From: Lewinella sp. IMCC34183
GTDB taxonomy: Bacteria; Bacteroidota; Bacteroidia; Chitinophagales; Saprospiraceae
Direction: 5' to 3'
Assembly (NCBI RefSeq): GCF_003390915.1
Contig: NZ_QMEM01000001.1
Location: 930,001 to 994,000, forward strand
Length of the DNA stretch: 64,000 nucleotides
Notes under the pieces: model-generated
What the model saw: only the letters and a program-made list of their open reading frames with translations
What the model was told of the DNA's origin: nothing
Databases searched by the model: none
In this document: in pieces, positions 37,986 through 50,470 of the stretch
Numbering within the stretch: the first letter of the stretch is position 1
Layout of the letters: every line of letters begins with the position of its first letter
Program-made: the position numbers and the translations under genes

Positions 37986-38062
37986 TGGTGACCGCGTCAG
38001 GATTCGAACCTGAAACCTCTTGATTCGTAGTCAAGTGCTCTATCCAGTTGAGCTACGCAGCC
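37986..38062 (-). tRNA. tRNA-Arg (anticodon ACG), CCA encoded
   Basis: Cloverleaf on the minus strand: acceptor GGCTGCG/CGCGGTC (two wobble pairs), D stem GCTC/GAGC, anticodon stem CTTGA/TCAAG with loop CTACGAA (anticodon ACG, reading CGN arginine codons after A34 deamination), five-base variable region, T stem TCAGG/CCTGA with TTCGAAT loop. Discriminator A is followed by an encoded CCA (37988-37986). Total 74 nt plus CCA. Confidence 0.95.
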
Positions 38063-44978: not shown

Positions 44979-46313
44979 ATGTTCGACAACCTCAGCGACC
45001 GCCTGGAAGGCGCATTCAAATCCCTGACCGGCGACAACAAGATTACCGAAATCAACGTCGCCACCAGCCTCAAGGAAATCCGCCGCGCGCTCGTGGCCGC
45101 CGACGTTAATTATAAGATAGCCAAGGAATTTACCGATAAGGTAAAGGAGAAGGCCCTCGGGACCGAGAACGTGCTCAAGGCCGTCAAGCCCGGACAACTT
45201 ATGGTCAAGATTGTCCAGGACGAGCTGACCGAACTGATGGGCGGACAGTCCGTCGGGATCAATGCCAAAGGCAATCCGGCCGTGATCCTGATCGCCGGCC
45301 TGCAGGGCTCGGGTAAGACCACCTTCAGTGGCAAGCTCGCCAAGTTTCTGCAGGAGAAGCGCAAGGCCAAGGTACTCCTCACGGCCTGTGACGTGTACCG
45401 CCCGGCGGCCATCGACCAGCTCACCGTACTGGCCGGTCAGGTTGGTGCCGAGATCTACAAGGAACCGGAAAACAAGAACCCCGTCGAAATCGCCCTGAAG
45501 GCGATTGACTACGGTAAGCAGAACAAGTTTGACGTGGTCATCGTCGACACCGCCGGCCGCCTCTCGGTCGACGAAAAGATGATGCAGGAGATCAGCGACG
45601 TTCGCCAGGCTATCAACCCCAACGAGACCCTGTTCGTCGTCGATTCCATGACGGGACAGGACGCCGTCAATACCGCCAAGGTATTCAACGAGCGTATCGA
45701 TTACGACGGTGTGGTCCTGACGAAGCTCGACGGCGACACCCGCGGCGGCGCGGCCCTTTCGGTGAAGTACACCGTAGGCAAGCCCATCAAGTTCGTGAGC
45801 ACCGGCGAGAAGATGGACGCCCTGGATGTGTTCCACCCCGACCGCATGGCCCAGCGCATCCTGGGCATGGGCGACATCATCTCCTTCGTTGAGCGGGCCC
45901 AGGATCAGTTCGACGAGGAGGAGGCCAAGCGCCTCGAGAAGAAGATGAAGAAGAATCGCTTCGACTTCAACGACTTCCTGAGTCAGCTGGCGCAACTCAA
46001 GCGGATGGGCGACATGAAGAGCCTGCTCAACATGATTCCCGGTATGTCGAAAGCGATGAAGAACATCGACATCGACGACAGCGCCTTCTCCCGCGTGGAA
46101 GCCATCATCTACAGCATGACCCCCGAGGAACGCGCCAGCCCAGAGCTGCTCAACCTCAGCCGCAAGAAGCGGATCGCCCTCGGTTGCGGACAGGGCATGG
46201 ACGACGTCAACCGCTTCATCAAGCAGTTCGACCAGATGCGCAAGATGATGCACAAGCTGTCCAACAACCCCATGATGGCCCAGATGGCCGGCAACTTCAA
46301 GGCTAAGCGGTAG
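44979..46313 (+). CDS. ffh: Signal recognition particle protein Ffh
   Basis: A 444-residue SRP GTPase that binds signal peptides and 4.5S RNA for membrane targeting. The N domain starts MFDNLSDRLEGAFKSLTG. The G domain has GLQGSGKTTFSGKLAKFL (G1), DVYRPAAIDQL, VDTAGRLSVDEKMM (G3), TKLDGDTRGGAALS (G4) and a late GEKMDALDVFHPDRMAQRILGMGD. The M domain includes KRMGDMKSLLNMIPGMSKAM and the RNA-binding IALGCGQGMDDVNRFIKQF, which ends methionine-rich. It is monocistronic, with a terminator at 46371. Confidence 0.97.
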   Translation: MFDNLSDRLEGAFKSLTGDNKITEINVATSLKEIRRALVAADVNYKIAKEFTDKVKEKALGTENVLKAVKPGQLMVKIVQDELTELMGGQSVGINAKGNPAVILIAGLQGSGKTTFSGKLAKFLQEKRKAKVLLTACDVYRPAAIDQLTVLAGQVGAEIYKEPENKNPVEIALKAIDYGKQNKFDVVIVDTAGRLSVDEKMMQEISDVRQAINPNETLFVVDSMTGQDAVNTAKVFNERIDYDGVVLTKLDGDTRGGAALSVKYTVGKPIKFVSTGEKMDALDVFHPDRMAQRILGMGDIISFVERAQDQFDEEEAKRLEKKMKKNRFDFNDFLSQLAQLKRMGDMKSLLNMIPGMSKAMKNIDIDDSAFSRVEAIIYSMTPEERASPELLNLSRKKRIALGCGQGMDDVNRFIKQFDQMRKMMHKLSNNPMMAQMAGNFKAKR

Positions 46314-46370: not shown

Positions 46371-46420
46371 AGCCCTCGTAGGAGTATGATTATCATACTG
46401 TTACGGGGGCTACTTTTTTT
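46371..46420 (+). terminator. Terminator of ffh
   Basis: AGCCCTCGTA (46371-46380) pairs with TACGGGGGCT (46402-46411). An inner palindrome AGTATGAT/ATCATACT extends the stem, and seven T's follow (46414-46420). Confidence 0.9.
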
Positions 46421-46554
46421 ACTTTGTTTCTGTTTTTCCCAAATCTGGAAATTCCCTTAGCAATTGGAAAATAATCGGTTCGGAGGTCCCGTTTTAAGGT
46501 CAGATTTCTGCAAATGTGGAGTCCGGTTATCAACGCTTTTGCAACGATAGCCAC

Positions 46555-46640
46555 GTGTTTGTTCATAGTGTCTCTCTAGTGTCGGTGCTCTCCCTATAGG
46601 CCTATTATCCTGGGGAAGAGCACCGGCTCCACTATCACCT
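46555..46640 (+). repeat. Structured repeat, copy 1
   Basis: Conserved 5' block GTTCATAGTGTCTCTCTAGT, then a variable stem GTCGGTGCTCT/AGAGCACCGGC (one wobble), then TC and CACTAT. ATAGTG (46565-46570) pairs with CACTAT as an outer stem, enclosing an asymmetric internal loop: TCTCTCTAGT opposite TC. The first 34 bases are identical to copy 2. Confidence 0.85.
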
Positions 46641-46885
46641 CAATTACCCCGCTGATCCGTCGGACGGTCGAATGTGGCTGCTCCCTACGGTGGGGATCAA
46701 CCGCTTCTCAACCAGCTGATTTCGTTTCGTGCGAGCCATGCGTAATTCGCTTTGCCGGGCCCGCAGGTGCCGAGGTATTAGCAGATCACGACTACCTTGG
46801 TCACGATCCGCATACCACCTATCCCAAGAAAATATCCGATGGCTGACGAGTGCCTAACATCTCGTTCATCGGCAACGTATGTTTT

Positions 46886-46970
46886 GTGTTTGTTCATAGT
46901 GTCTCTCTAGTGTCGGTGCCCTTCCGTATAGGATTTTTGTCCTGAATAGGGCACCGACTCCGCTATCTCC
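46886..46970 (+). repeat. Structured repeat, copy 2
   Basis: Same 5' block as copy 1, with inner stem GTCGGTGCCC/GGGCACCGAC (10 bp perfect). The outer stem ATAGTG/CGCTAT has a G-T wobble; the 3' side of the internal loop is again TC. The terminal loop differs from copy 1. GTTCAT begins 331 bp after that of copy 1. Confidence 0.85.
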
Positions 46971-47137
46971 TCCTCTGATTGTCCCTGTTCCACTTCAAGC
47001 GAAGCGATACGACGCTGTACGCCAACCCGGACAATTTCCCCGCATTATAAATTATTCGATATGCGTGAAACCGATCGCGTCGCGACACGCGTAGGTAAAA
47101 GCAATTTCGAGAAGTGTGTATGCGAACCTTTGATTCT

Positions 47138-47185
47138 GTAAGTGTCTCTCCCCCCGGCAAATTGTTCTTGCCCCATTTTACTTAC
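47138..47185 (+). repeat. Structured repeat, diverged copy
   Basis: GTAAGT (47138-47143) pairs with ACTTAC (47180-47185). Inside, GTCTCTC follows as in the main copies, then GGCAA/TTGCC. The outer stem sequence differs from copies 1-3 but still pairs; only AGTGTCTCTC is shared as sequence. Confidence 0.5.
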
Positions 47186-47223
47186 CCGGCACCCATGTAG
47201 CTTCTTTTCGTCGGGCCGATTGC

Positions 47224-47318
47224 TGTTCATAGTGTCTCTGATCGCCGATGCCGGTTTACACGCCCTGCCCACTTAGTTGGTTTGGTCGCACCTCGGAAAC
47301 CGGTATCGGCTCCACTAT
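47224..47318 (+). repeat. Structured repeat, copy 3
   Basis: 5' block CTGTTCATAGTGTCTCT, internal-loop bases GATC, then inner stem GCCGATGCCGGTTT/AAACCGGTATCGGC (14 bp, one G-T wobble), TC, and CACTAT as the outer 3' arm. GTTCAT begins 333 bp after that of copy 2. Its 3' end overlaps the stop codon of the convergent BNR-protein gene. Confidence 0.85.
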
Positions 47319-50300
47319 TCGAACTTCCAGAGGGCGCCGACACCCGCCTCCCAAAGTTTCTCGTTCAATGCCCCTACCCGCTCGTCGCGCAGCAGTTCCC
47401 CCTGCCGCTTGAGTGTCTGCCAGCGGACCTTCATTTCCTCCAGTTGCTCGCGCGTCGGTTCGTTGACGCGTGGCAGACCACTCTCGGCGTGATTGAGTAC
47501 GAAGAGGTAATTCGCGGTAAACTTGTTCTCGAAATTCTCGACGTCGTCGTAAGCCTGTGACTTGCGCTGGATCATTTTTCCATCCCACTGTTTCAAATCA
47601 CTTAGGAGGCTATCCGCCATCCGGTAGGCCTCGGGGTGCGCCTCGCGATCGAGCTTGCCGACTAGTTTTTGTAGTTGTTCCTGTACGGACATGAGGTCAT
47701 TCACCAGTTGGTGCATCTCGTTGACGGAGGCCTCTCCCGCCCGCATAAAGGCGTCGTATTCGGCGTAGTCTTCGGCGGTGAGATCGTATAGCGGGTTCTC
47801 TGCGATGGTTACCGATTCGCTCCGCGTGGTGTTCCCGTCGCTCAACGTAAGCTGGTAGGTCCCCGGAGCCACTTTGTGTCCCCGAAAGCTGCCCTCGATG
47901 TAGGCCGACGGTGCCCCCGTCAGTTCCGGATACCGCATGTCCCATACGAAGCGGTTCATACCTGCTTTGGCCGGCAGTAGCGTCTGTGCGGGCGGGCCCC
48001 CGGCGTACGTCTTCTGGTCTTCATTCCGCTGGTTCGTGATCGAGCGAACCTCCTTCCCCTCATCGTTGGTGACCGTGAGGGTCACTTCCGTGGAGTCGGT
48101 CGCTTCCGGCAAGTAGTAGTAGACCACGACGCCGCCGGCGGGATTGGTTCCGTTGAGCGGCTCCACGCCCTCGAATACCGAACCGTTGCCGTCCAGCGGG
48201 CTGCGCCCGCCCCCGATGATCGACTCGGCCGGAACGTACAGTTGCACCGTCTCGGGGACACCATCGAATTGCCGCACCATTTCAAGGTCGTCGAGCACCC
48301 AGAACGCGCGGCCGGAGGTAGCGACAATAAGGTCATCGTGGGCCACCTTTAGGTCGGTGATCGGCGTGATCGGCAGATTCTGGTTGAAACGCCGCCAGTG
48401 ATTCCCACCATCGAAAGAGACGAACAGTCCCAGCTCGGTACCGGCGAACAGCAGGTTTTCGCGTTCGGTATCCTGCCGCACCACCCGGGTGTAGGCAGTG
48501 GGGGGCAGATCGCCGGTGATTTCGGTCCAGCTTTGTCCGTAGTCGGTGGTCTTCATGAGCCGTGGGGTATGGTCGTTCCACTTGTAGCGGGTGGTCGCGA
48601 TGAAGGCCGTACCGGCGTCGTGGGGGGATACGTCGATTGCATTGACCAGGGTCTCCCCTTGTCCGGCGGGTGTGACGTCGGTCCAGGTGTCGCCGTAATC
48701 ACGCGTCAGCTGCACTTTTCCATCGTCGGTACCCACCCACAGGATGCCAGCCTCCTGGGGGGAATCGGTCACGTAGCTTATCGTTCCATAGTTCTCGGCG
48801 CCTACCGCTTCGTTGGTGTACGGGCCCCCGCCCTTACCCTGCTTGTCATCCTGATTGCGCGTGAGGTCGGGGCTGGCTTTTTCCCAGGTCTGTCCGAGGT
48901 CACGCGTGCGCAGCAGGTGTTGGGAGGCGTGGTAGAACGTGTTCGGCTCCTCGTGTCGCGACCAGATGATCGGCGCGTTCCAGTTGAAGCGGTACTTCAT
49001 GTCTCTGGCGGCCAGTCCGAGGTACTGGATCGGGGCGGCCATCACATTGGTGCTCGCACCGGCTCTGGTGTCGAGCACCTCGATCGTCCCTAGATAGCTG
49101 CCGCCGAGCACGTAACGCGGATCGTCGGGGTCGAAGGCCAGGAAGGCACTCTCCCCGCCGGCGGAAGGTTCCCAGTCGGACCCCGTAATACCGGAACCGT
49201 TCATGACCCGGCTGCTGATCTTGACGGAGGTGTTATCCTGCTGCCCGCCGTAGATGTGGTAGGGAAATTGGTTGTCGGTGTTGATGCGATAGAATTGCCC
49301 GGTCGGCATGTTATCCTGGGTGGACCAATCCTCCCCATAGTTAAAGCTAATGGCCGCGCCGCCATCGTTGGCGATACAGAGGTTGCGTGGATTGTCGGGG
49401 TTGATCCAGAGGTCGTGGTAGTCGCCGTGGGTGCCGGACAACTCTTCCCAGCTGTCTCCCCCGTCGGTCGAGCGCAGGGCATCGGCGGTCAGCACGTAAA
49501 CCACGTCGGAGTCGGTCGGGTCCACGAACACCTCCAGATAGTACCAGGCCCGCTGCACGAGGCGGTGATCCTTGCTGACCCGCGACCAGCTTTTGCCACC
49601 GTCAGTGCTGAGGAAGAGCCCGCCCTTCTCCAACTCGGAGTCGCTCTCAATGAGGGCGTAGACACGATCGGGTTCCGACTGGGCTACGGTGATGGCCATC
49701 TTACCCTTTTCCTCGGGCAGTCCATCTTTGAGCTCGGTCCAGCTATCGCCGCCGTTTGTGGATTTGTAGAGGCCGCTGCCCGCGCCGCCGCTAACTACCT
49801 GCCAGGGCAGCCGCTGGTGTTCCCACATGGCGGCGTAGAGCACGTCGGGATTGGAAAGATCCATGCTCAACTCGGCGGCACCGGTGAGGTCATTGACGTA
49901 GAGCAGTTTTTCCCAGTTATGCCCCCCGTCGGTGGACCGGTAAACCCCGCGCTCTTCGTTAGGGCCGTAAAGCTGCCCCTGGGCGGCTACGTACACTATG
50001 TCCGGATCCTCGGGGTGAATGATGATGCGGGAGATGTGCTGCGTCTCGGTCAGGCCGAGGTGCTTCCAGGTCTTGCCGGCGTCGTTAGACCGGTAGACCC
50101 CGTCGCCGTGGGACGTCATGACCCCGCGGGGGGCGTGCTCGCCCATACCGAGATAAACGACCTGGGGATTACTACGGGAGACCGCTACGGCCCCGACGGA
50201 GCCCGTACCTACATACCCGTCGGTCACGTTTGTCCAACGCTGGCCGGCGTCAGTGGTCTTCCACAATCCGCCGCCGGTCGTACCCATGTAGTAGACCAGC

Positions 50301-50470
50301 GGGTTACCCGCCACGCCGGTGGCCGTTACCGAACGGCCGCCGCGGAAGGGGCCGATGTTGCGAAACTTGACGGGAGCAAAGAACTCAGTGACTTCGGAGG
50401 AGTCGGCCGGGGCCTGCGCCAGCAAGGAAGCGGTACAGGTAAGGGCAAGCAGGTAGAGCAGGCAGCGCAT
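47315..50470 (-). CDS. Secreted BNR/VPS10-type beta-propeller protein
   Basis: A 1051-residue exported protein, with a signal peptide ending near SLLAQAP. The first 700 residues hold many Asp-box (BNR) repeats of the form S-x-D-x-G-x-x-W: [80 protein letters not shown]. This matches the sortilin/VPS10-like propellers often labelled glycosyl hydrolase in Bacteroidota. Catalysis is not demonstrated. A beta-sandwich segment (about 780-900) and a helical C-terminus ([19 protein letters not shown]) follow. No T9SS domain is evident. Confidence 0.85.

Follow-up and report, generated by a model that had tools for sequence, protein, structure and literature searches.

Tandem copies of a putative small RNA built on a sequence element conserved across a bacterial taxonomic family

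Three copies of a structured element stand in a row beyond the ffh gene of Lewinella sp. IMCC34183, and they share a 5' block that recurs far outside this locus. The block is strictly conserved, coupled to terminators and found in ordered tandem pairs in roughly one in three genomes sampled from a large family of environmental bacteria, which we take to be Saprospiraceae. We read the copies in the window, i.e., the whole stretch of 64,000 nucleotides that was analysed, as genes for paralogous small RNAs arranged in tandem, or as such modules within a single transcript, and give this reading a probability of roughly 0.7. That discrete RNAs are made from these loci is what we infer. Trans-acting small RNAs are built with a conserved single-stranded stretch beside a terminator, as most members of the wider RNA family would be.

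In this model each RNA would consist of two parts, the common element GUGUU(U)GUUCAUAGUGU(C/U)U(C/G)U and a hairpin behind it. For most members of the RNA family this hairpin would serve as an intrinsic terminator, with the element expected to be unpaired. The window type would carry a longer hairpin that covaries, and the 3' strand of this hairpin, CUCC(A/G)CUAY, could pair with AUAGUG of the element and partly mask it. The element itself would act as a seed for pairing around start codons and/or as a site for an RRM protein, as in the FopS/RbpB system of Bacteroides.

The window copies and their locus in the genus

The features of the locus are given below, where R1 is a covariance model built from 11 copies without window copy 3 and searched in the genus only.

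44979..46313, plus strand: ffh (SRP54 GTPase; Pfam PF00448, E 6.8e-74)
46371..46419, plus strand: hairpin with a T-run between ffh and the array, resembling a terminator, as read from the sequence
46490..46497, plus strand: CGTTTTAA, possible promoter element, judged from the sequences
46503..46523, plus strand: upstream hairpin a of copy 1, a predicted fold; relatives have a similar hairpin ahead of their first copy
46525..46552, plus strand: upstream hairpin b of copy 1, a predicted fold (GGTTATC/GATAGCC)
46555..46635, plus strand: element copy 1, the shared block GTGTTTGTTCATAGTGTCTCT at 46555-46575 and then the hairpin (R1 E 1.3e-20, the copy itself being part of the model)
46886..46966, plus strand: element copy 2 (R1 E 1.7e-20, the copy itself being part of the model)
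47219..47318, plus strand: element copy 3 (R1 E 3.2e-9, the copy being left out of the model)
47315..50470, minus strand: convergent gene of a sortilin-Vps10/BNR-repeat protein (Pfam PF15902, E 1e-31), whose stop codon is overlapped by the 3' end of copy 3

The sequence-only reading from which this work started had described three copies with a common 5' block, and as an observation it is confirmed. The core of the block, GTTCATAGTGTCTCT, occurs exactly at 46561, 46892 and 47225, at spacings of 331 and 333 bp, and no other site in the window lies within three mismatches of it. At that tolerance chance would give 0.60 matches, and three were reached in 3 of 100 shuffles as well; the three observed are exact. 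The first 34 bases are identical between copies 1 and 2, the outer stem ATAGTG/C(A/G)CTAT is present, and the inner stems of the three copies differ in sequence yet remain paired. The stretch after copy 2 has no similarity by blastn to those before and after copy 1 (best E 0.15), in line with the unrelated look of the intervening DNA that had been noted. The period of 331-333 bp holds within the window but not as a general property of the element, because in two relatives the starts of the first and second copies are 255 bp (G137) and 261 bp (G129) apart.

All three copies fold better than every one of 200 dinucleotide shuffles made for each (z = -4.3, -5.1 and -3.3). Covariation extends beyond the window copies: in a set of 11 copies that includes those of relatives and leaves out window copy 3, the cells changed on both sides of a pair number 9 against 3.0 in shuffles, with none of 500 shuffles as high. 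Other measures on the same set are less distinctive, as three pairs have a two-sided change against 1.5 in shuffles (33 of 500 reach 3), and the further pair types number 9 against 8.8 (284 of 500 as high). When the partner is shifted by 1-3 columns, pairing falls from 96.8% to 28-59%. The double changes are confined to the inner helix; the outer helix has none, and one of its six pairs is broken in 3 of the 11 copies. Since the 5' strand of the outer helix lies inside the block, which is conserved for other reasons, this helix is to be called conserved rather than demonstrated by covariation. Its 3' strand, CTCC(A/G)CTA(T/C), can pair with ATAGTG of the block, and on this model the element of the window type could be partly masked by its own 3' strand.

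The sequence-only reading had also proposed building a covariance model, searching related genomes with it, and comparing the locus in close relatives for gain or loss of whole 330-bp units. Both checks were run, and they gave further copies in eight relatives and a locus that holds one, two or three of them. The window type, i.e., block plus hairpin, is firm in 9 of 21 Neolewinella/Lewinella genomes, with 13 matches at E 2.6e-7 or better: one copy each in G006, G123, G124, G125, G131 and G136, two in G129 and G137, and three in the genome of the window (G000). A marginal tenth genome, G130, has E = 0.012, and at a firm R1 E-value 12 of the 21 genomes are without the window type; weaker R1 matches are mostly of other types and arise through the block alone. 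The second copy of G129 was found by R1 at E 2.7e-11 and, like window copy 3, is an independent find, because neither is in the model. This series of one, two and three copies in related species is a locus at which the growth of such arrays could be studied.

In all 9 of the 9 genomes with firm R1 matches, these fall at a single locus; by tblastn, the element adjoins the same Vps10/BNR gene in 8 of 8 relatives and lies downstream of ffh in 6 of the 8, G137 among them, while ffh was not found beside it in G006 and G131 within the 3 kb examined. Upstream of the first copy, a similar pair of hairpins is predicted in 8 of 8 relatives (in G124 only with a longer stretch folded), with hairpin b paired through other sequence, e.g., GGTTACTG/CAGTAACC in G123. 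Fold prediction gives no such pair before copies 2 and 3 or before the second copy of G137. A GTTTT-type box occurs at a similar upstream place in most relatives, and no canonical promoter was recognised at window-type sites.

These positions bear on a DNA-level explanation, according to which the copies would form an integron-like cassette array, recombination sites or the ends of small mobile elements. Such an origin would account for imperfect inverted repeats separated by unrelated DNA and for a copy number that varies between species. It is hard to match with a conserved position beside Vps10 and, in most relatives, ffh, with related sites that are coupled to terminators, and with arrays seen in one orientation, and we consider it extremely improbable. 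Among the interpretations offered by the sequence-only reading, that of tandem small RNAs is supported, by terminator coupling and ordered pairs, whereas the cassette array and the mobile-element ends are left unsupported by the conserved position and the terminators of related sites.

Two specific kinds of element were considered in their own right. Integron attC sites have core sites RYYYAAC and GTTRRRY at their two ends; the copies start with GTTCATA and end with CTCC(A/G)CTAT, and do not fit these cores. A MITE-like element would be expected as copies scattered over unrelated sites of related genomes, which the single locus per genome and its constant Vps10 neighbour do not match.

The shared block across the taxonomic family

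What is conserved across the taxonomic family is the shared foot and not the hairpin. The 15-mer GTTCATAGTGTTTGT occurs exactly in 96 of 298 family genomes, belonging to 43 of 112 family genera, and is absent as an exact match from the other 202; its reversed control pattern was found in 2 genomes, by reading of the table. In a phylum sample of 395 genomes, the 17-mer TTGTTCATAGTGTTTGT is exact in 3 of the 6 family members and in none of the 389 genomes from outside the family. There, exact GTTCATAGTGTTTGT occurs in three genomes (G364, G540 and G564), within 17-mers that have one mismatch; this is about the number expected by chance, and no terminator lies behind any of the three. Across the whole collection, the matches listed for the exact 15-mer come mostly from unrelated organisms, as chance predicts, and only the Neolewinella/Lewinella loci among them were used.

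Within the genus, the block precedes quite different hairpins, and all 21 genomes have some site within two mismatches of the block 15-mer. The genome of the window has the exact 15-mer at one more place, on contig C2, and it carries, besides the three window copies, sites of two further types, named after loci L001 and L008, i.e., several paralogous copies around one conserved element. The L001 type (8 sequences aligned) is long, conserved and RNA-like and has a strong terminator, and the L008 type (17 sequences aligned) is short. At L001 itself (positions 1380-1700, from G000:C2), the region comprises a promoter box TATATTTG, the shared block, a GTTATAATTCGC/GCGAAATTATAAC stem, an AAAGGAG stretch and the strong terminator; it has no Rfam match, and its orthologues are L129, L141, L159, L160, L165, L170 and L172. 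The window type is best seen as a genus-specific, divergent branch with a maskable element.

A few minor observations belong to these sites. The neighbour of L008-type sites was first taken for atpZ, which was rejected, the frame tested being an ArsR-type HTH protein. At L237 (G124:C1:1041041-1041124, minus strand), two element matches lie 63 bp apart with look-alikes nearby, and no terminator was found behind the nearer match. The 20-mer GTGTTGTCCACAGCGTCTCT differs from the element by three mismatches and is the same in 12 of the 21 genus genomes, at G000:C54:97304-97323 and at one site in each of 11 others.

Terminators, promoter boxes and tandem pairs

Terminators, i.e., a hairpin followed by a T-run, were counted over 154 distinct sites. 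With the window type excluded, 88 of 109 exact-class sites have one within 75 nt; the corresponding figures are 60 of 1211 for control windows and 13 of 154 for windows of 75 nt taken upstream of the block. The sites are not independent samples, because they are drawn from related genomes, and the calling of terminators, like that of gene starts and signal-peptide scores, follows home-made rules. The 21 misses include some L001-type sites with a terminator farther than 75 nt away, and window copy 3, classed as "other" by the site rule, is counted as one miss among the 109. Sites with one further mismatch have a terminator in 7 of 34 cases, so that many of them are probably chance matches, and among window-type sites the figure is 1 of 11.

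A location directly before terminators would also be expected if the element were a cis-acting 3'-end signal of mRNA 3' UTRs, serving in processing, stability or termination, with no separate small RNAs made. In G136 and G125, moreover, a window-type copy begins about 110 nt past the ffh stop, and the tandem pairs described below follow a same-strand AcrB-type gene in 5 of 8 cases tested. In the window, however, ffh has its own terminator-like hairpin and the copies start at least 136 bp beyond it; many genus sites, e.g., most L001 and L008 loci, have an upstream gene on the minus strand, according to a crude ORF caller; and arrays of several copies with one terminator per copy are ill-suited to a single 3' UTR. 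We therefore judge a cis-acting signal unlikely. As regards the narrower possibility, raised by the sequence-only reading, that the array is merely the 3' UTR of ffh, the same hairpin at 46371-46419 speaks against it, as do the two relatives that have the element but no ffh within 3 kb and the wider family of sites, which lie beside other genes.

The block could instead be a promoter, with the hairpins merely following the start site. It is the most constant part, it lies 5' of variable hairpins, and the canonical box TAnnTTTG is rare close by, the 116 sites of all types having only 17 boxes between them in the 70 nt upstream. This box, the known -7 box of Bacteroidota, does occur in 8 of 8 L001-type and 9 of 17 L008-type sequences, a good distance upstream of the block, which places the block inside the transcript in these two types. 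In addition, conservation spans the whole 15-21 nt, including the terminator side, and a promoter at this place would leave RNAs of about 35 nt with little but a terminator. The boxes upstream in two types, though not general, lower the promoter idea to one that we hold very improbable.

The small-RNA reading draws further support from the order of the copies. Among 46 distinct G-variant sites, taken from loci L281-L330 and L390-L417, 32 have the sibling variant GTTCATAGTTTTTGT upstream on the same strand, 76-555 nt away, and within 600 nt none has it downstream or on the opposite strand; 2 of the 14 sites without an upstream sibling had too little upstream sequence. Arrays of G-variant copies 108-113 bp apart are found in G014 (three copies) and G213 (four), each preceded by a T-variant copy. 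The neighbours of 15 hand-picked pair loci were looked up and 17 proteins were sent to Pfam: the upstream flank is an AcrB-type transporter, on the same strand as the pair, in 5 of 8 proteins tested, the downstream flank is a pyridoxamine 5'-phosphate oxidase (PdxH) in 4 of 9, and both agree in L399, L408 and L329. The recurrence of these flanks indicates that the pair occupies the same locus in several genera. Loci with a T-variant followed by a G-variant and an acrB-type and/or pdxH neighbour, in several genera, include L396, L399, L408, L412, L329 and L319, among others.

Possible targets, protein partners and known systems

Under the small-RNA reading, the element would serve as a start-codon seed and/or as a site for an RRM protein; both functions are putative. 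Read as its complement, the block includes the start-codon context ACACUAUGAAC. Complementarity to gene starts was counted for 539 called genes in 800 kb of the genome of the window, with these results: 14 and 16 8-mers at starts against shuffled means of 7.6 and 8.9 (3 and 7 of 100 shuffles as high), 5 and 6 9-mers against 2.0 and 2.3 (8 and 4 of 100), and 1 and 1 10-mers (35 and 34 of 100), with 0-2 matches in inner windows. In the six distinct genes with a 9-mer, each match spans the start codon, and a general preference for ATGAA confounds the comparison; the excess is weak. SusC starts, suggested by analogy with FopS, have no group complementarity in the 29 scored among the 58 matches listed (mean -0.7 kcal/mol, median shuffle fraction 0.35), and SusC targeting found no support at these starts. 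As a separate observation, the leader of one SusC-like gene, L354 (G000:C53:237153-240191, minus strand), has ACAAACACTA just upstream of the chosen ATG, a perfect 10-nt complement to the element, which as a single case is a lead only.

It is possible, though doubtful, that the element only binds a protein, e.g., an RRM protein, and that the RNAs are decoys that titrate it without pairing to mRNA; this is a sub-reading of the small-RNA explanation and does not exclude the rest of it. The very strict conservation, the internal repeat GUGUU...GUGUUUGU and the U-rich stretch before the terminator would suit a protein site, as would the single RRM_1 match in the genome of the window (L361, G000:C53:91989-92198, a small RRM with a glycine-rich tail) and the lack of clear mRNA targets. 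Against it may be set the start-codon context spelled by the complement and the L354 leader, one case that proves nothing. No Hfq was found in the 12 of 12 family genomes tested.

A broader proposal, which we regard as rather improbable, would make the element the mark of a main Hfq-independent regulatory RNA system of the taxonomic family, with an old tandem pair of two seed variants, often at an acrB-pdxH locus, and dispersed copies besides. In this proposal the window type would be self-locking, with CUCC(A/G)CUAY covering the seed AUAGUG until a protein or a signal opens it.

Among known systems, the small-RNA reading comes closest to the FopS RNAs of Bacteroides thetaiotaomicron, 14 paralogous RNAs that, according to the part of the source drawn on, associate with the RRM protein RbpB and block translation of SusC by acting close to its start codon, in a phylum without classical sRNA chaperones (PMC11697453); GibS of the same species is a companion known sRNA (PMC7366714, also drawn on in part). 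As far as these partial sources go, the likeness lies in multicopy paralogous RNAs, in a conserved stretch beside a terminator, and in an RRM protein that is a partner there and occurs once here. The taxonomic family is another one, however, and the likeness rests on the build and not on the seed sequence. The ordered tandem pairs also set the present RNAs apart, as the word "tandem" is absent from the main text of PMC11697453. The window copies differ further, having a maskable element and no terminator, and SusC targeting is unsupported here; because only 1 of 11 window-type sites has a terminator and the element is part-paired, they are not filed as FopS-like but only as relatives via the block.

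Near-identical RNAs that act together are a theme in other phyla too, and the biology of the sibling sRNAs of Neisseria meningitidis is Hfq-based. These siblings (PMC5362039, drawn on in part) belong to an unrelated organism and are likened to the present RNAs by description only. In Bacteroidota, the part of PMC9723704 drawn on mentions the computed RNA motif Flavo-1 and describes Rfp RNAs.

Motifs of the Flavo-1 type in Rfam 15 are likewise unassigned RNA elements of the same phylum. Literature searches for small RNAs of this taxonomic family yielded nothing, and the published regulatory RNAs that they turned up with known targets come for the most part from Bacteroides. The element would give an entry point to post-transcriptional control without Hfq and to the question why paralogous RNAs stay side by side.

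Collectively, these putative RNAs are a new family of a kind already known, paralogous sRNAs with a common element, distinguished here by a tandem pair of fixed order and by a variant that can be masked. The earlier statement that the element matches no known family holds, as no Rfam 15 family reaches its gathering score for the element in the window or at 12 loci. At permissive settings, the window stretch, L001 and four family loci had no match that came near its gathering score, and no FopS name appears among the matches at E<=1 to the four loci, the presence of FopS in the library being uncertain. The only gathering-level Rfam match in the window is a tRNA gene at 37989-38062, on the minus strand.
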